Source: Phycicoccus sonneratiae (GTDB taxonomy: Bacteria; Actinomycetota; Actinomycetes; Actinomycetales; Dermatophilaceae). Taken from it: 64,000 nucleotides of DNA. Shown piece after piece: positions 3,947 to 63,479 of this stretch (positions are counted from its first letter, which is position 1; each line of letters starts with the position of its first letter). The stretch covers positions 62,001 through 126,000 of the forward strand of contig NZ_JAFDVD010000013.1 in NCBI RefSeq assembly GCF_016887965.1, given 5' to 3'. Position numbers and translations under genes: made by a program. Under the pieces are notes generated by a model. It worked only from the letters and a program-made list of their open reading frames with translations. It had not been told where the DNA came from and ran no database searches.

Positions 3947-4260
3947 GCCCGGTCCCCCCGAAGGACGTCCAGCGCGCCGCGACACGGGCCGTCGGCTGGA
4001 TCGGCGAGGGCAGGGCCGGCCGCGGCTTCACCGACACCGGTCGGCGCCGGGCCAAGCAGCTGGCCGACGGTGACGACGTCAGCCGCGCCGTCGTGGGCCG
4101 GATGCGCGACTACTTCGCCCGCCACGACGTCGACAAGGACGCCGACGGCTTCCGGCGCGGCACCGAGGGCTACCCGAGCCCGGGCCGGGTCGCGTGGGAC
4201 GCCTGGGGCGGCGACGCCGGGCAGCGCTGGTCGAACAGCAAGGCGTTCACCGACGACTGA
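3943..4260 (+). CDS. Small conserved protein with a phage-type YPS-GR-AW-WGGDAG domain
   Basis: A 105-residue protein starting at GTG 3943 within the stop of the preceding gene. The C-terminal half contains YFARHDVDKDADGF, then GYPSPGRVAWDAWGGDAG and RWSNSKAF. I recognise this signature from proteins encoded by phages and prophages, sometimes attached to head or protease proteins; its function is unknown to me. The N-terminal half (RAATRAVGWIGEGRAGRGF) is basic and may bind nucleic acid. There is no other phage gene nearby. The gene ends directly at a palindromic repeat. Confidence 0.65.
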   Translation: MSPVPPKDVQRAATRAVGWIGEGRAGRGFTDTGRRRAKQLADGDDVSRAVVGRMRDYFARHDVDKDADGFRRGTEGYPSPGRVAWDAWGGDAGQRWSNSKAFTDD

Positions 4261-4347
4261 CCCTCCCCGACCTTGTGGGGGCAGGTCCGCCCGGATCGGC
4301 GTCTCCACGGCGTGTCGGCGGCTGCTGCCCCACACAGTCGGGAGGGG
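4261..4347. repeat. Class A palindromic element, copy 1 (A1)
   Basis: An 87-base imperfect palindrome between convergent genes. The left arm contains CCTCCCCGACCTTGTGGGG, the right arm CCCCACACAGTCGGGAGGGG. Between them is a core starting GTCCGCCCGGATCGGCGTC and ending CGGCGTGTCGGCGG. The same arms and core recur at 13671-13750, and a related core at 62744-62780. It begins directly after the stop of the upstream gene and could act as a bidirectional terminator. Confidence 0.75.
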
Positions 4348-4354
4348 CGGTGCG

Positions 4355-5536
4355 TCAGCCGAGGTGGCCGCGGACGCTCGCGTGCCCCTTGAGGAGGTTG
4401 CGGGCGATGGTCCGGCGCTGGATCTCGTCGGTCCCCTCGTAGATGCGCAGCAGCCGCAGCTCGCGGTACCAGCGCTCGAGCGGCAGCTCGCGGGTGTACC
4501 CCATCCCGCCGTGCACCTGGAGCATCCGGTCGACGATCTCGTTGGCCCGCACGCCGCCGAAGAGCTTGGCCATCGACTGCGCCTGCCGGCTGTCGCGCCC
4601 CGCGTCCACCTGCCAGGCCGCCGACAGCACGAGCCAGCGCAGCGCCTCGATGTCGACCGCCGAGTCGGCGACCATCCACTGGATGGCCTGCCGCTCGGCG
4701 ATCGGCTGCCCGAACGTCACCCGGTTGCGGGCCCACTCCATCCCCATCTCGACCATCCGCTCGCAGCCGCCGAGGGCACGGGCGGGCAGCAGGTAGCGGC
4801 CCTTGCCGATCCACTGCATCGCGAGCGCGAAGCCCTTCCCGACCTCGCCGAGCACCGCCGACTGCGGCACCCGCACCCCGTCGAAGGTCAGCGCGGCCGG
4901 ACCCCACTCGCCCATCGTGTCGATCGGGTGCGAGGTCCAGCCCCGCTCGCGGTCGACGAGGAAGCAGGTGACCGACTCGCCAGTGCGGCCCTCCCGGTGC
5001 GCCTCGGCGTCGGTGACCGCGAAGACCATGACGAAGTCCGCCTCGTGCCCACCGGTGATGAACGTCTTCTCGCCGGTGATGACCCAGTCGTCACCGTCGC
5101 GCTCGGCCTTGGTCCGGATGGCGCGGGCGTCCGACCCGGCACCCGGCTCGGTGATGGCGAAGCAGCTGCGCCGAGTGCCCTCGATGGTGGGCCGCAGGTA
5201 CTCCTCCTGCTGCGCCTCGGTCGCGTGGAAGAGGATGTTGTCGGCCTCGCCGGCGAACCGGAACGGGACGAACGAGCGGCCGAGCTCGACCTCGACGAGG
5301 GCGGCCATCACGGCCGACAGGCCCATGCCGCCGTGCTCCTCGGGGGTGAGGACGCCGAAGAAGCCCGCCTCCCGGGCGGTGTCCTGCAGCCGCTTCAGCT
5401 CCTCCGCCGGCAGGCCGCGCTCGTGGCGGCGCTCACGGGCGAGGACGTCCTGCTCGAGCGGCATGACCTCCTTCTCGACGAAGGTGCGCACCCACTGCCG
5501 GATGTCGCGCTCGTCCTCGGTCAGGTCCAGGTCCAT
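4355..5536 (-). CDS. Acyl-CoA dehydrogenase family flavoprotein
   Basis: A 393-residue cytoplasmic acyl-CoA dehydrogenase, full length for the family (about 380-400). It begins MDLDLTEDERDIRQWVRTF and has the FAD and substrate motifs CFAITEPGAGSDA (near 145) and VITGEKTFITGGHEAD. The C-terminal YEGTDEIQRRTIARNLL carries the Glu used as catalytic base in short/medium-chain members. It would oxidise an acyl-CoA to the enoyl-CoA and pass electrons to ETF; the substrate cannot be read from sequence. It appears monocistronic. The divergent gene on its 5' side is a BNR-repeat protein. Confidence 0.9.
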   Translation of the reverse strand: MDLDLTEDERDIRQWVRTFVEKEVMPLEQDVLARERRHERGLPAEELKRLQDTAREAGFFGVLTPEEHGGMGLSAVMAALVEVELGRSFVPFRFAGEADNILFHATEAQQEEYLRPTIEGTRRSCFAITEPGAGSDARAIRTKAERDGDDWVITGEKTFITGGHEADFVMVFAVTDAEAHREGRTGESVTCFLVDRERGWTSHPIDTMGEWGPAALTFDGVRVPQSAVLGEVGKGFALAMQWIGKGRYLLPARALGGCERMVEMGMEWARNRVTFGQPIAERQAIQWMVADSAVDIEALRWLVLSAAWQVDAGRDSRQAQSMAKLFGGVRANEIVDRMLQVHGGMGYTRELPLERWYRELRLLRIYEGTDEIQRRTIARNLLKGHASVRGHLG

Positions 5537-11786: not shown

Positions 11787-11935
11787 CGAGGCCCGACCCC
11801 GGGAGGACACGTGGTCCACCGGAACTCCGTGCTCGAGGCAAGGGATCGATTGCCACGCGCAAGGGATCCCTTGCGCCAGGCAAGGGATCGATTGCCACGG
11901 GCAAGGAAGTGGGGACAGTGAGGTGTCGGGCCTCG
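11787..11935. repeat. Class D array: 21-base-period palindromic repeats in a divergent promoter region
   Basis: The segment 11838-11906 is built of 21-base units starting GCAAGG at 11838, 11859, 11880 and 11901. Units 1 and 3 read GCAAGGGATCGATTGCCACG; unit 2 with its neighbour bases is the perfect palindrome GCGCAAGGGATCCCTTGCGC (11857-11876). The array is flanked by the inverted pair CGAGGCCCGA (11787-11796) and TCGGGCCTCG (11926-11935). A 21-base period is two helical turns, so sites would lie on one DNA face. It sits between divergent genes and may be an operator array. Confidence 0.7.
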
Positions 11936-12012: not shown

Positions 12013-14832
12013 ATGACGCTCACCGACCGCCTCACCGGCGCCGCTGCCGGGACCCCGGACGGCGGTGCCGACGCCGCCCTCGACGTGTTCGTCGAGTGGG
12101 CCGGCGAGCGCGGCTTCACCCTCTACCCGGCGCAGGAGGAGGCGGTGCTCGCCCTCGCCGGCGACGCCCACGTCGTCCTCGCGACGCCCACCGGGTCCGG
12201 CAAGTCCCTCGTCGCGGTCGCCGCGCACGCCCAGGCGCTGGCCACCGGTCGACGGTCCTGGTACACCGCGCCCATCAAGGCCCTCGTCTCCGAGAAGTTC
12301 TTCGCCCTCGTCGAGACCTTCGGGGCCGCGCAGGTCGGGATGCTCACCGGTGACGCCGCGGTCAACCCCGGGGCGTCGATCATCTGCGCCACGGCCGAGG
12401 TGCTGGCGAACCACGCCCTGCGCGAGCGCGACGCCTCCGACATCGGACTCGTCGTCATGGACGAGTTCCACTTCTACGGCGAGCGCGACCGGGGCTGGGC
12501 CTGGCAGGTGCCGCTGCTCCTCCTGCCCGACACCCAGCTGCTCCTCATGTCCGCGACGCTCGGCGACACCTCGGCCCTCGAGCGCGACCTGGCGCGGCGC
12601 AGCGAGCGCGAGGTCGTCGCGGTGACCGGGGCCGAGCGACCGGTCCCGCTCGAGCACGAGTGGGTGCTCACCGCCGTGCACGAGACCATCGAGCTGCTGC
12701 TGCGCGACGGCCGCGCGCCGGTGTACGTCGTCTCCTTCACGCAGGCCGGTGCCGTCGAGCAGGCGCAGGCGCTCGCCTCGGTCGAGGTGCTGTCCGCCGA
12801 GCGCAAGGCCGCCGTCAAGGAGGCGGTCGGCGGCTTCCGGTTCGGGAAGGGGTTCGGGCAGACGCTGCGCCGGCTCGTGCTGCACGGCATCGGGGTGCAC
12901 CACGCGGGGATGCTCCCGAAGTACCGGCGCCTCGTCGAGACCCTCGCCCAGGCCGGGCTGCTCGCGGTCATCTGCGGTACCGACACCCTCGGCGTCGGCA
13001 TCAACGTCCCCATCCGCACGGTGCTGCTCACCTCGCTGACGAAGTACGACGGCCGGACGCAGCGCCTGCTCCGGGCGCGGGAGTTCCACCAGATCGCGGG
13101 GCGCGCGGGCCGGGCCGGCTTCGACACGGTCGGGTACGTCGTCGTCCAGGCGCCCGAGCACGTCATCGAGAACAGCAAGGCCCTCGCCAAGGCCGGTGGC
13201 GACCCGAAGAAGGAGCGGCGCATCGTCCGGAAGAAGCCGCCCGAGGGCGCGCTCACCTGGACCGAGGCGAGCTACGACCGGCTCGTCGCCGCCGAGCCCG
13301 AGCCGCTCGCGTCGCGGATGCGCGTCACGCACGCGATGGTGCTCAACGTCCTCGACCAGTGGGAGGGCCAGCAGGACGCGCTGCACACCCTGTTGCTCGA
13401 CAACCACGAGACCGACGAGCGTCGCGAGCGCCTCGTCGAGCGGGCGGTGCAGGTGCTCGGGTCGCTCGTGCGCGCGGGGGTGGTCGAGCCCGACGACGGG
13501 TCCTTGGTCGCGGACTGGCTTCCTCCGGAGCCGGATCCGGAGGAGGGTGCATCCGTTCCGGAGGCGGCGCCCGAGCCCGACCCGACCCCGCAACCGGTCG
13601 ACGCCGGGTCGCTGGGGGCGCTCGGGGCGCTCGGCGAGGCGCTCGCCGCGGCCGGGCTGGCCCCCACGTCCCCCGACCTCGTGGGGGAGGGTCCGCCGGA
13701 CTCGCCGTCGGAACGGGGTGTCGGGCGGATGGACCCCCACAAGGTCGGGGAGGAGCGGGAGGTGACACCACTCGAGCGCTTCCTGCGCCGCGACGGCCGG
13801 CGCTTCGCCGAGGGTCCGTTCCAGGTGGCCATGGACCTGCACGAGGGCTTCGCGCTCAACCAGCCGCTGTCGGCCTTCGCCCTCGCGGCCCTCGAGCTGC
13901 TCGACCGCGAGTCGCCCGAGTACGCCCTCGACGTCGTCAGCGTCATCGAGGCCACCCTCGACGACCCGCGCCCGGTGCTCCTCGCCCAGCAGTTCGAGGC
14001 GCGTGGCGAGGCGGTCGCGGCGATGAAGGCCGACGGGCTCGAGTACGAGGAGCGGATGGACGCCCTCGAGGACGTCACCTGGCCCCGCCCGCTGGCGGAC
14101 CTGCTGGAGCAGTCGCTGCGCACGTACCGGCAGTCACACCCGTGGGTCGACCCGCGCGACCTCTCCCCGAAGTCGGTCGTCCGTGACCTGTTCGAGCGCG
14201 CGATGACGTTCGGGGAGTTCGTCGCCCACCACAAGCTGGCCCGCGCCGAGGGCGTCGTCCTGCGCTACCTCACCGACGCCTACCGGGCGCTGCGCTCGAC
14301 CGTGCCGGTGTCGGCACGCACCGAGGAGCTCGACGACCTCGTCGAGTGGCTCGGCGAGGTCGTGCGGCACACCGACTCCAGCCTCCTCGACGAGTGGGAG
14401 TCCCTGGCGCACCCGGACGGTGCCGACCCCGGCGCCGAGGTCCGGCCCTCCACCGAGGGGCGCGCACTCTCGGCCAACCCGCGGGCGTTGCGGGTCATGG
14501 TGCGGCAGAGCATGTTCCGGCGAGTCGAGCTGCTGGCGCTCGCGCGGTACGAGGCGCTGGCGGCGCTCGACGGCGGGCTGACCGCGGAGCAGTGGCAGGA
14601 CGCCGCCGCCGGGTACCTCGCCGAGTACGGGTCGTTCTCGACGGGTCCGTCGGCCCGCGGTCCGGCCCTGTTCACCGTCGAGGAGGGTGACGGCGCGTGG
14701 GTCGTCACGCAGGTCCTCGACGACGAGGACGGCGACCACGACTGGCGCATCACCGCCGAGCTCGACCTCGCCGCCACCGACGAGGCGGGCGAACCGGCCC
14801 TCGTCGTCACCGGGCTCGCGCCGCTGACCTGA
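12013..14832 (+). CDS. DEAD/DEAH-box helicase with DUF3516
   Basis: A 939-residue SF2 helicase of the Ski2/Mtr4-like type seen in actinobacteria. Motif I is ATPTGSGKS (about 60), motif II DEFH (VVMDEFHFYGERD), motif III SAT, and motif VI region HQIAGRAGRAGFD. The C-terminal half, after about residue 590, fits DUF3516 (FLRRDGRRFAEGPFQVAMDL onward). It probably unwinds RNA or DNA in RNA turnover or repair. A Pro/Glu/Asp-rich linker at about 500-585 separates helicase core and DUF3516 and contains a class A palindrome translated in frame. ATG 12013 is chosen because helicase homology begins soon after; an open frame continues upstream through the class D repeats but looks non-coding. Confidence 0.88.
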   Translation: MTLTDRLTGAAAGTPDGGADAALDVFVEWAGERGFTLYPAQEEAVLALAGDAHVVLATPTGSGKSLVAVAAHAQALATGRRSWYTAPIKALVSEKFFALVETFGAAQVGMLTGDAAVNPGASIICATAEVLANHALRERDASDIGLVVMDEFHFYGERDRGWAWQVPLLLLPDTQLLLMSATLGDTSALERDLARRSEREVVAVTGAERPVPLEHEWVLTAVHETIELLLRDGRAPVYVVSFTQAGAVEQAQALASVEVLSAERKAAVKEAVGGFRFGKGFGQTLRRLVLHGIGVHHAGMLPKYRRLVETLAQAGLLAVICGTDTLGVGINVPIRTVLLTSLTKYDGRTQRLLRAREFHQIAGRAGRAGFDTVGYVVVQAPEHVIENSKALAKAGGDPKKERRIVRKKPPEGALTWTEASYDRLVAAEPEPLASRMRVTHAMVLNVLDQWEGQQDALHTLLLDNHETDERRERLVERAVQVLGSLVRAGVVEPDDGSLVADWLPPEPDPEEGASVPEAAPEPDPTPQPVDAGSLGALGALGEALAAAGLAPTSPDLVGEGPPDSPSERGVGRMDPHKVGEEREVTPLERFLRRDGRRFAEGPFQVAMDLHEGFALNQPLSAFALAALELLDRESPEYALDVVSVIEATLDDPRPVLLAQQFEARGEAVAAMKADGLEYEERMDALEDVTWPRPLADLLEQSLRTYRQSHPWVDPRDLSPKSVVRDLFERAMTFGEFVAHHKLARAEGVVLRYLTDAYRALRSTVPVSARTEELDDLVEWLGEVVRHTDSSLLDEWESLAHPDGADPGAEVRPSTEGRALSANPRALRVMVRQSMFRRVELLALARYEALAALDGGLTAEQWQDAAAGYLAEYGSFSTGPSARGPALFTVEEGDGAWVVTQVLDDEDGDHDWRITAELDLAATDEAGEPALVVTGLAPLT
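13671..13750. repeat. Class A palindromic element, copy 2 (A2), inside the helicase gene
   Basis: An 80-base palindrome within the linker-coding part of the helicase gene. The left arm has CCCCGACCTCGTGGGGG, the right arm CCCCCACAAGGTCGGGG: a 17-bp stem with one mismatch, extended by GGTCC/GGACC. The core is GCCGGACTCGCCGTCGGAA followed by CGGGGTGTCGGGCGG. The reading frame is kept, giving roughly residues 553-580. Its arms match A1 and its core matches A3. Confidence 0.75.
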
Positions 14833-30788: not shown

Positions 30789-30860
30789 GTGGTGCTCGAT
30801 GAGCCGTCCCAGTGTGCCCGATGCACCCCGCTTCGGACAAAACGCCCGGCCCCACCCCGC

Positions 30861-30908
30861 GGTTCGAGGTGAAAGACGACCACCTCCCGGTCGGGTTTCA
30901 CCTCGACC
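30861..30908. repeat. Class B palindromic element, copy 1 (B1)
   Basis: A 48-base hairpin: GGTTCGAGGTGAAA pairs with TTTCACCTCGACC, and inner GACGACC faces GGTCGGG with partial pairing. Two more copies lie at 48314-48362 and 48379-48425. It sits between tRNA-Leu and the pirin gene, 15 bases past the pirin stop. Confidence 0.8.
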
Positions 30909-30923
30909 GAGCGGTCGGGGCCG

Positions 30924-48362: not shown

Positions 48363-48378
48363 GAGGCGGGACGCGGCC

Positions 48379-48425
48379 GGTCGAGGTGACGGACGACCAG
48401 CAGCGGGTCGGGTATCACCTCGACC
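48379..48425. repeat. Class B palindromic element, copy 3 (B3)
   Basis: A 47-base hairpin with outer stem GGTCGAGGTGA/TCACCTCGACC (11 bp, perfect) and inner GGACGACC facing GGGTCGGG as in B1. It follows B2 after 16 bases, making a tandem pair, and ends 18 bases before the DUF3566 stop. Confidence 0.8.
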
Positions 48426-48443
48426 CGCGGGCGCCGGCCCGGC

Positions 48444-62013: not shown

Positions 62014-62709
62014 ATGCCGTCCCGTGCCGAGCACCGCCGCGCCGTCGAGGCCCGCATCGTCGAGATCGGGCGCCGTCACCTCGCCGCGGAGGGAGCGGCC
62101 GGGCTGTCGCTGCGCGCGGTGACCCGCGACCTCGGGATGGTGTCGTCGGCGGTGTACCGGTACGTCGCCAACCGCGACGAGCTGCTGACCCTCCTCCTCG
62201 TCGACGCCTACACCGAGGTCGCCGACGCCGTCGACGCGGCGGTGGCCGAGGCGGGCGACCGGCCGTGGTCCGAGCGGGTCGTCGTCGCCGGGAGGGCGTT
62301 CCGGCGGTGGGCGGTCGACGACCCCTCGCGGTACGCGCTGCTCTACGGCAGCCCGGTGCCGGGGTACGAGGCACCGGCCGAGCGCACCGTCGAGCCGGGG
62401 ACCCGGGTCGTCATCACCCTCGCGCGGCTCGTCGACGAGGGGGTGCGGGCCGGCGAGGTGACGCCGGCCGGACCCGTGGCGACGCGCGACGAGGACCTGC
62501 TCGCCGACCTCGTGCGCGTGGGTGAGGAGGTCGGCCTGGCCGCCGGGGCCGACGTGCTCGCCCGGGCGCTCACCCTCTGGGCCGTGCTCGTCGGGGGGAC
62601 GAGCCTCGAGGTCTTCGGGCAGTACGGGCGGGACACCTTCCGGGACGCCGGAGCGCTGCTCGAGCAGCAGCTGCGCCTCGTCCTCTCGCTCCTGCGCGCG
62701 GACCCCTGA
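62014..62709 (+). CDS. TetR family transcriptional regulator
   Basis: A 231-residue regulator, ATG 62014. The N-terminal HTH is LAAEGAAGLSLRAVTRDLGM followed by VSSAVYRYVANRDELLTLLL, typical of TetR. The C-terminal ligand domain contains VVAGRAFRRWAVDDPSRYAL and YGSPVPGYEAP, as in the TetR_C_13/WHG-like actinobacterial class. It probably represses itself and the divergent F420-type reductase gene through the two palindromes. Confidence 0.9.
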   Translation: MPSRAEHRRAVEARIVEIGRRHLAAEGAAGLSLRAVTRDLGMVSSAVYRYVANRDELLTLLLVDAYTEVADAVDAAVAEAGDRPWSERVVVAGRAFRRWAVDDPSRYALLYGSPVPGYEAPAERTVEPGTRVVITLARLVDEGVRAGEVTPAGPVATRDEDLLADLVRVGEEVGLAAGADVLARALTLWAVLVGGTSLEVFGQYGRDTFRDAGALLEQQLRLVLSLLRADP

Positions 62710-62813
62710 CCTCCTCGATCAACCCACACTTGTTGCGAGTTCGGCCGCTGGACGCGCCCTCATTCGGGGTGTCGGGCGGTCGAACTCGCAACAAGTCGAA
62801 GGGGGTGAGGTCA
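62707..62813. repeat. Class A palindromic element, copy 3 (A3)
   Basis: Perfect 16-bp arms ACTTGTTGCGAGTTCG (62728-62743) and CGAACTCGCAACAAGT (62781-62796) enclose a core starting GCCGCTGGACGCGCC and ending CGGGGTGTCGGGCGG. The outer ends TGACCTC and GAGGTCA include the stop codons of the convergent tetR and dciA-like genes. The last 15 core bases are identical to those of A2, but the arms are a different sequence. Confidence 0.78.
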
Positions 62814-63479
62814 GCCGTAGGTGTCGCGGGGGCCACGGCCGTCCTGCACCCGGTGCCGCCCGCGCGACCACGTCGGCGCGCTCGGGCCGACGACCCGCAG
62901 CTCGGCGACCGTCCCCTCGCCGACGTCCTCGGCGAGGCGGGCCATCAGCGACGACTCGAGCAGGCGCAGCTGGGTGGCCCAGGCGGTGGAGTCGGCGCGG
63001 ACGGTGAGGACGCCGTCGACGAAGTCGGTGGGATGGCAGTGGGCGGCGACCTCGTCGCCGACGATGACCGGCCAGCGCCCGATGACCGAGCCGACGGCCA
63101 CGTCGGCGCCCCAGCCGCGGTCGACGACGAACCGGTCGATCTGGTCGCCGAGCAGCTGCGGGTCGCGGCCGGCGTCACCGCGCCGGCCCCCCGGCACGTC
63201 CTTGGCGCGGCGGCGGGGCTTCAGGCCCGGGCGCAGGCCCTTGGCGCGCGCTCGGGCCCGGGCCCTTGCGAGCGCCTCGGCCGTCGCGAGCCCGGCGTCG
63301 CCGACCTCGTCCTCACGTGCCTCCTCGGCGAGGTCCGGGCCGGTGTCGGAGGCCCCGGCACCGCTCTTCCCCCGGGAAGCACCCTCTTCCGCGGGGAACG
63401 GTTCCGGGGTGGAGCGCGGCGGTATCGGGTCACCCGATACGCGTGGGTCATCCGGGGCCGCCGGGGGGTCAGGCGTCAT
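62811..63479 (-). CDS. DUF721 / DciA-like replication-associated protein
   Basis: A 222-residue protein starting [20 protein letters not shown], its start overlapping the end of recF by 11 bases. A 110-residue polar and basic N-terminus ([20 protein letters not shown]) precedes the DUF721 domain ([40 protein letters not shown]). DUF721 includes DciA, the loader-like partner of replicative helicase in many bacteria. Its position after recF is conserved; gyrB, normally next, is displaced by about 8.9 kb. Confidence 0.88.

Follow-up and report, generated by a model that had tools for sequence, protein, structure and literature searches.

A genus-level family of long palindromic repeats in Phycicoccus, located mostly behind stop codons and carrying lineage-specific arm dialects

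Results

Three palindromic elements and their gene surroundings

The window, that is, the whole stretch of 64,000 nucleotides analyzed here, lies within contig C30 of the Phycicoccus sonneratiae genome (NCBI family Intrasporangiaceae; hereafter G000; 4.11 Mb in 33 contigs) and carries three palindromic elements, two with one type of arm (A) and one with another (B). The elements and two of the genes at their sites are as follows.

4265..4343, no strand assigned: copy 1, type A, with arms at 4265-4280 and 4328-4343 and an inner core at 4286-4321 around a 6-base loop
11728..14832, plus strand: host gene of copy 2, a DEAD-box helicase with a C-terminal DUF3516 (open reading frame and Pfam domains)
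13671..13750, no strand assigned: copy 2, type A, with arms at 13671-13686 and 13735-13750 and the core word GTGTCGGGCGG at 13718-13728
62724..62800, no strand assigned: copy 3, type B, with arms at 62728-62742 and 62782-62796 and the core word at 62769-62779
62811..63479, minus strand: dciA, the 3′ end of which adjoins copy 3, with a B copy at the same site in two other species

All three elements named in the initial annotation are present and fold far better than shuffled sequences, with DNA fold z-scores of -4.25, -3.86, and -9.01 for copies 1, 2, and 3, respectively, and none of the 200 shuffles of each element folding as well as the native sequence. Their common 3′ core and their division into two types of arm likewise agree with that annotation. 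The claim that two copies sit between convergent stops applies to copies 1 and 3. Copy 1 is flanked by a stop at 4258-4260 (plus strand) and by that of an acyl-CoA dehydrogenase gene at 4355-5536 (minus strand; the stops were checked, and the right-hand gene was assigned by Pfam). Copy 3 lies between the stop of a TetR-family gene at 62707-62709 (plus strand) and that of dciA, about 5 kb from dnaA, with recF, dnaN, and dnaA beyond dciA. Copy 2 sits inside the helicase open reading frame, the true start of which is probably downstream of 11728 (the codon-usage gene caller starts at 12013). A mosaic of GGCAAGGGATCGATTGCC-type palindromic repeats was observed at the start of this frame (11826-11907), and a repeat resembling it, GCAAGGGATCCCTTGC, occurs in another genome (G002, L271:7077-7129). 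The arms of copy 3 are indeed unlike those of copies 1 and 2, but they mark a second subfamily, type B, with copies of its own. Their pairing is perfect, as had been reported, whereas the other copies pair well rather than perfectly; over the whole structure, 76.0% of cells are paired among the own-genome copies of type A and 79.3% among those of type B.

Geometry and range of the family

A genome-wide scan, which the initial annotation had proposed, revealed further copies in the own genome and in relatives of the genus. The 31 own-genome copies used (19 of type A and 12 of type B) have a near-fixed length. The consensus plan of type A consists of CCCCGACCTTGTGGGG, five free bases, TCCGCCCGACACGCCG, a six-base loop, and then the mirror image, and that of type B consists of CCCGACTTSTTGCGAGTTCNGCCGCTCGACACGCCG, a loop, and then the mirror image. 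From one arm start to the next, the 12 aligned B copies measure 53 and the 16 aligned copies of type A measure 63 or 64; these alignments were reduced from 15 B rows by dropping three second registers of the same element, and from 21 A rows by dropping three overlapping rows in poly-G junk and two poor rows. As matched, including short margins, type B elements are mostly 77 bp long, and those of type A and of a further type D (see below) 86-89 bp. Four genomes (G000, G003, G008, and G011) are rich in elements, with 20-41 copies used from each, and 121 of their 123 elements measure 77-89 bp, the remaining two being 64 and 65 bp.

With at most two mismatches allowed, the arm patterns matched 27 times for type B and 49 times for type A in the own genome, where one whole element scores twice, and the reversed patterns matched three times each. 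The core word alone was rejected as a family marker: GTGTCGGGCGG with at most one mismatch was seen 14 times in the window against 11.8 expected, which is the chance level, and only four of nine exact GGTGTCGGGCGG matches in the own genome lie within elements, the other five being without such arms. The evidence for a family thus comes from the core together with the arms.

Covariance models R1 (type A) and R2 (type B), trained on G000 alone, matched nine and seven of 39 genomes, respectively, all within the own genus (12 genomes in the comparison) except for one weak case (G032). The R2 model reached 91.3 bits in G003 (E 1e-19). The window copies, each of them part of the training set of its model, scored 72.9 bits (copy 1, R1; L254:2062-2148), 87.2 bits (copy 2, R1), and 73.8 bits (copy 3, R2; L256:2025-2101). 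Matches in G004 were weak, and those inspected were other palindromes. Copy number is patchy across the 12 genus genomes; the numbers from the model search are lower bounds, with only about 113-122 candidates scored per genome, and the pattern search, which has no such ceiling, yielded 76 arm matches for G000 and 50 for G008. One A-type arm was seen 12 bases from the end of G000 contig C12, and another runs into poly-G junk at C15:78926; this suggests that the palindromes interrupt the assembly and that the number of copies may be underestimated.

Beyond these genomes, the arm pattern was found in 16 stretches of named genomes: ten in Phycicoccus jejuensis, two in Salinibacterium soli, and one each in a Kiritimatiellia MAG, a Pelagicoccus MAG, a Planctomycetota MAG, and Streptococcus sanguinis, the last four with a different arm spacing. 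Salinibacterium soli WY-16 (L109 and L113), which belongs to a different genus, carries a palindrome family of its own (CGAGTTGCGAGTTCCGCACCTTCG...) with GTTGCGAGTTC in common with type B, and the better of these palindromes score 21-35 bits against R2. Among viral contigs the arm pattern matched twice, at the same stretch both times and with the core absent. An Rfam search of ten sources including the window detected three tRNAs and no other family above its gathering score, and a literature search, which was not exhaustive, found no description of this Phycicoccus palindrome family.

Elements lie mostly behind stop codons

The 123 elements of the four rich genomes were distributed over 62 convergent, 46 codirectional, and 10 divergent gaps, with five inside called genes, whereas element-free gaps of at least 60 nt at the same loci comprised 19 convergent, 125 codirectional, and 78 divergent ones (chi-square p 7e-20). 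Among the codirectional copies, 36 of 46 are closer to the stop than to the start, and the nearest stop of the 108 convergent and codirectional copies lies at a median of 10.5 nt and within 30 nt in 82. Genes were called for this count by a codon-usage script rather than taken from curated annotation, and the count covers matches above about 41 bits (leaving out eight in G008 loci and six in G003 loci) and omits the copies of G005, G010, and Salinibacterium. The proposal of a lineage-specific family at 3′ ends, often between convergent stops, is supported.

The sites of copies 1 and 3 were compared across relatives. Behind dciA, B copies are also present in G008 and G003, other hairpins or a palindrome in G010 and G005, and no comparable long palindrome could be recognized by eye in G006, G007, and G009. 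Behind the acyl-CoA dehydrogenase gene, the orthologue of which is present in only 3 of the 11 fetched regions, G003 and G008 carry an 87-bp palindrome of a different class (class F, see below) and G010 carries two other hairpins. The presence of these other hairpins at the copy 1 site is compatible with a hairpin function at gene ends. The elements share with terminators the position of a G+C-rich hairpin shortly behind a stop codon. However, the initial suggestion of a terminator is not supported in its canonical form: a T run of at least three, corresponding to a U-tract behind the hairpin, was present in 1 of 170 downstream flanks, and the mean was 1.65 T of 12 against a background of 1.59. 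The elements may still act as terminators.

Intragenic copies

The host protein of copy 2 has a linker joining its helicase part to DUF3516, and the element is translated in frame as part of this linker. No A or B copy was found there in 11 orthologues from the genus. The nearest relative, G010, gave an R1 match in the linker (19 bits, E 0.02) that proved on reading to be another palindrome, GTCGAGTGCGG...CCGCACTCGAC (L139:2172-2235); a longer relative of this GTCGAGTGCGG-arm palindrome was seen in G003 (L273:8189-8240). A second A copy of G000 lies in coaBC, where it forms part of the linker that connects the CoaC domain to CoaB (L311:2032-2118). In coaBC of G011, a type D copy occupies the identical codon position and reading frame (R1, 37.6 bits; L314:2185-2271). 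Seven other aligned coaBC orthologues have a shorter linker without the element. A single insertion passed on by simple inheritance was rejected for this pair, since an unrooted tree of three proteins (1129 columns, supports 73-100) groups G000 with G010 and G011 with G005/G006 and does not join the two carriers. The pair could have arisen by two gains, by transfer, or by one gain followed by several losses. Three of the five copies scored as inside called genes represent one orthologous B site in three species (L153:3238-3314, L207:2030-2106, and L236:1123-1199), where the element takes up about 26 codons toward the end of an open reading frame and itself scores poorly as coding sequence. The start of this frame is AbiEi_4-like in the G008 copy.

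Arms are conserved as base sequence

Matches with both flanks were used to pick by hand 25 pairs of orthologous elements in G003 and G008, of which the 22 ungapped ones were analyzed, and eight pairs of own-genome B elements with G003. In addition, four own-genome A elements stand at sites where G011 has type D elements, and a further D site of G011 corresponds to a B site of G003 and G008. In the 22 pairs, identity was 86.8% over the whole stem, 55.2% in the loop, and 45.3% in the flanks. The 36 positions conserved among the 12 B copies of G000, a set chosen independently of these pairs, were 94.3% identical, compared with 79.8% for the other 30 inner stem positions. A set of 49 block positions was 96.1% identical (mean of 1000 re-pairings, 91.2%; maximum, 94.1%), although these positions were chosen from the same pairs and the value is hence flattering. 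Orthologous pairing exceeded all 1000 re-pairings for the blocks, the variable positions, the loop, and the flanks, and stem identity was 0.868 for orthologues against 0.814-0.826 for non-orthologues. Vertical descent is thus visible, and homogenization alone does not explain the conservation of the arms. The near-invariant words are ACT, TTGCGAGTT, GCCG, CGAC, and CGC, with short free positions between them, and they are mirrored on the other arm.

The initial annotation had proposed that the arms change while their pairing is kept, as selection on a folded structure would produce, and had named covariation as the test. Within the own genome this was not supported: pairs changed on both sides were rarer than in shuffles (5 versus 11.3 for type A; 3 versus 6.9 for type B). 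Between orthologues, 6 of 28 double changes in the 22 G003-G008 pairs keep pairing in both species, and 22 leave at least one species unpaired. A fold-based count had indicated an excess of double changes for G003-G008 (41 versus 16 expected, 27 paired) and for G000-G003 (17 versus 7.5 expected, 7 paired), each pair being counted in both directions, and also across dialects (58 versus 36.5 expected, 37 paired). For G003-G008, the stricter fixed-structure count gave the 6 paired changes in 28, so no compensation is claimed inside type B. In the two species compared for type B, the arms are conserved as base sequence and are not driven by pairing; arms held in this way are conserved as a half-site read by a protein would be. 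When codirectional copies are read on the transcribed strand, mismatches of the G.T kind slightly outnumber those of the A.C kind (58 versus 41), a weak hint pointing to RNA.

Lineage dialects and related palindromes

Between lineages, the idea of a constant core with changing but still pairing arms stands. The CCCCGAC ends and mostly the core GACACGCCG persist, and the mid-arm is replaced on both sides in a way that still pairs. Type D was read in 20 copies of G011 (mid-arm TTTTCATGC), type E in two copies of G005 (mid-arm CTCGTGCGAGTTACACAC), and type K in one copy from each of two genomes of another genus of the family (mid-arm CTTCGTCTGT). Types D, E, and K have ends identical or close to CCCCGAC, and the core GACACGCCG or a close form of it is found in types A, B, D, and K but not in E. 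Across 11 hand-picked sequences of types A, D, K, and E, 75.5% of mid-arm cells pair; shuffling the partners 2000 times lowered this figure to 57.3%, with 67.8% as the highest value reached.

Several other palindromes touch on this family. The core-only pattern occurs in 42 of 186 genomes and 18 of 53 genera of the bacterial family, where matches to the reversed pattern are rare; among 30 such loci that were read, several represent a class of shorter palindromes in which ACACGCCGG-N6-CCGGCGTGT is enclosed by different arms, and others consist of the core alone, with no long arms. A type C palindrome (CCGACTTSTTGCGCATCCGCCACCTC...) shares its outer ends with type B and stands beside B copies in G008 (L150:2042-2118, L155:2082-2158, and L159:2320-2396), where the two form mosaic clusters with spacings of 193-250 bp, at which neighboring B copies are 93-96% identical. 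In the 87-bp class F, each arm is itself a palindrome (CGCGTATCGGGTGACCCGATACG; L272:3651-3737 and L273:4691-4777), and 42 copies of its motif are found all round the G008 chromosome. A single class F motif lies in the window at the 5′ end of dciA (63423-63439). A further class with the arms TCGAGGTGA and TCACCTCGA was noticed at 30847-30923 and 48365-48439 of the window and at about L163:2255-2300 in G008.

Chromosomal distribution of type B in G008

In the single-contig genome G008, which has dnaA at about 837 kb, 48 of 50 exact TTGCGAGTTC matches lie between 3.5 Mb, over zero, and 1.6 Mb, with none for the reversed control; the other two matches are not elements according to R2 (L262 and L263). 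For circle tests, 31 B loci and 26 class F loci were picked by hand. The largest empty arc of the B loci covered 46.8% of the chromosome (reached in 0 of 200000 uniform simulations), and the largest gap of class F covered 15% (81981 of 200000). The origin half of this one genome holds 25 of the 31 B loci (p 0.0009; contrast with class F, p 0.083). The empty arc holds for type B only, as two weak matches of another palindrome with the GACACGCCG core lie inside it. This palindrome, CCCGTCGAGYGAACAGGACACGCCG..., was observed at 3.10 Mb (L186:4216-4293; 31.5 bits) and at 2.98 Mb (L315:1379-1465; 21.4 bits). Type B would show this distribution also if it had spread locally from a source, and REPs have been described to accumulate near the transposase gene (PMC2817692).

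Discussion

Our data show that the elements form a genus-level family of long palindromic repeats that lie mostly behind stop codons, with dialects in the mid-arm and with intragenic copies. Published accounts describe REP/BIME sequences as palindromic, located behind genes, arranged in mosaic clusters, lineage-specific around constant features, and sometimes found inside open reading frames (PMC3733652, PMC2817692). On this description, the Phycicoccus elements resemble REP/BIME sequences, which go with RAYT (Y1) transposases, in palindromic form, gene-end position (118 of 123 outside called genes), mosaic clusters, lineage-specific sequence, and some copies inside reading frames. They differ from these 20-40-bp units in being mostly 77-89 bp long and in having constant ends and a constant core with a variable block between them. 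Tens of copies were counted per rich genome, the model counts being lower bounds, whereas REPs usually exceed 100. No GTAG tag was found in any of the 123 elements when each end was scanned from 4 nt beyond it to about 8 nt within, and a Y1 transposase (PF01797) was found in none of the 12 genus genomes, with the control matching in 5 of 14. The initial label of a REP/MITE-like unit fits in kind, but not in the REP/RAYT features of tag, transposase, and unit length.

ERIC elements, about 127 bp long, belong to a comparable size class. ERIC/MITE-type repeats are portrayed as imperfect palindromes that are intergenic and without coding capacity (PMC3733652), and the Phycicoccus elements, as far as that description goes, are likewise intergenic and have no coding capacity of their own. 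The terminal inverted repeats of a MITE have their counterpart in an element that is palindromic throughout. Unlike ERIC/MITE, which was compared by description rather than by sequence in the case of ERIC, the family shows a dialect structure and no clear target duplication: in tests of lengths 2-9 at offsets 0-3 with 200 shuffles each, flank identity stayed at the shuffle level in 27 of 28, and the one exception (length 5, offset 0) gave 0.272 against a shuffle maximum of 0.270. Neisseriaceae DNA uptake sequences also have species-specific dialects around a constant core, with inverted pairs associated with terminators (PMC3630211), and the lineage dialects here are similar to that extent; those sequences are 10-mers or a little longer in thousands of copies, unlike elements of about 80 bp with 20-41 used per rich genome. 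A partial likeness also exists to the nucleoid-occlusion sites of SlmA and Noc, which are dispersed and bound by protein. SlmA sites are described as more abundant near the origin (PMC4117426), and the present elements are dispersed, with type B in G008 avoiding the arc away from the origin, but they are much longer, and the bias was seen for one type in one single-contig genome.

The sequence-based results can be explained in several ways. That the elements are chance hairpins of a 74% G+C genome would agree with a bare core word no commoner than chance; this explanation is already refuted by the reversed-pattern controls (3 and 3 against 27 and 49 arm matches), by the scores of G000-trained models in other species, and by the retention of elements at orthologous sites, and its probability is negligible. 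A bidirectional RNA hairpin at gene ends, acting as a terminator or as a protector of mRNA 3′ ends, copied around the genome and serving both convergent genes, is unlikely though by no means far-fetched. It would account for the 108 of 123 copies between convergent or codirectional genes, for their short distance from stops and the enrichment of convergent gaps, for the replacement of the element by other palindromes behind acyl-CoA dehydrogenase (G003, G008, and G010) and dciA (G010 and G005), and for the G.T excess. It does not sit well with the near absence of T runs, the absence of compensatory changes, arm words that are fixed where a stem alone would be free, the three genomes with no comparable long palindrome seen by eye behind dciA, and the copies inside genes.

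A purely selfish REP/MITE-like repeat is a serious contender, to which we give somewhat less than an even chance. The element would then be a non-autonomous palindrome moved by a putative transposase, with its position and conservation resulting from insertion tolerance and copying. This agrees with the preferred explanation, given below, on the spread of copies and differs from it by denying a kept function. The helicase linker, with a copy that has no A or B counterpart in 11 orthologues, the A and D copies at one coaBC codon with seven other aligned orthologues lacking an element, the mosaic B/C clusters, and the patchy copy number all speak for such a repeat. Many sites, however, are common to sister species, and the arms are strongly conserved against diverged loops and flanks; moreover, there was no clear target duplication, no Y1 transposase, and no known parent insertion sequence, the search having covered Y1_Tnp only. 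The distribution in G008 raises a further scenario in which type B and its dialect relatives are sites of an undescribed Actinomycetota protein that organizes the chromosome or coordinates division. The dialect of the sites would then shift from lineage to lineage in step with the protein that reads them; we consider this scenario improbable.

The explanation we prefer, while judging the case for and against it to be evenly balanced, is that these are REP/ERIC-like palindromic repeats that settled behind stop codons and have been kept as sequence-specific sites with lineage dialects. Copies would have spread by a putative copying mechanism, to which copies inside genes of single lineages and clusters of near-identical neighbors point; we infer the copying, since neither an empty site with exact boundaries nor a clear target duplication nor a Y1 transposase could be found. 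The copies that persisted would mostly be those just behind stop codons, and these would then be held by sequence-specific selection of the kind visible in type B between two species. Most likely, each arm would represent a half-site read in its base sequence by a putative protein, either as duplex DNA or as an extruded hairpin. The same words would then be required in both arms, and a change in one arm would call for no compensating change in the other. A shift of recognition in a lineage could change the mid-arm of both halves across copies, so that constant ends and, except in E, a constant core would frame the different mid-arms of A, B, D, E, and K. Both the reading protein and the copying mechanism are inferred. 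Some points argue against the half-site reading. A length of 77 bp would be long for a site recognized by a dimer, and a function at the RNA level would also place elements behind stop codons. Furthermore, three element sites of G000 (dciA, acyl-CoA dehydrogenase, and the helicase linker) hold other palindromes in relatives, which would be expected if any palindrome sufficed or if insertion sites were shared.

Palindromic repeats behind genes are usually filed either as REPs with a RAYT transposase or as terminators. The Actinomycetota family described here has neither the REP tag and transposase nor the terminator U-tract, and it combines a constant frame with a mid-arm that differs on both sides by lineage, even at the same coaBC codon in G000 and G011. 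The family thus offers a handle for finding a sequence-specific protein or a mobilizer, as well as for studying how dispersed sites change dialect in concert.
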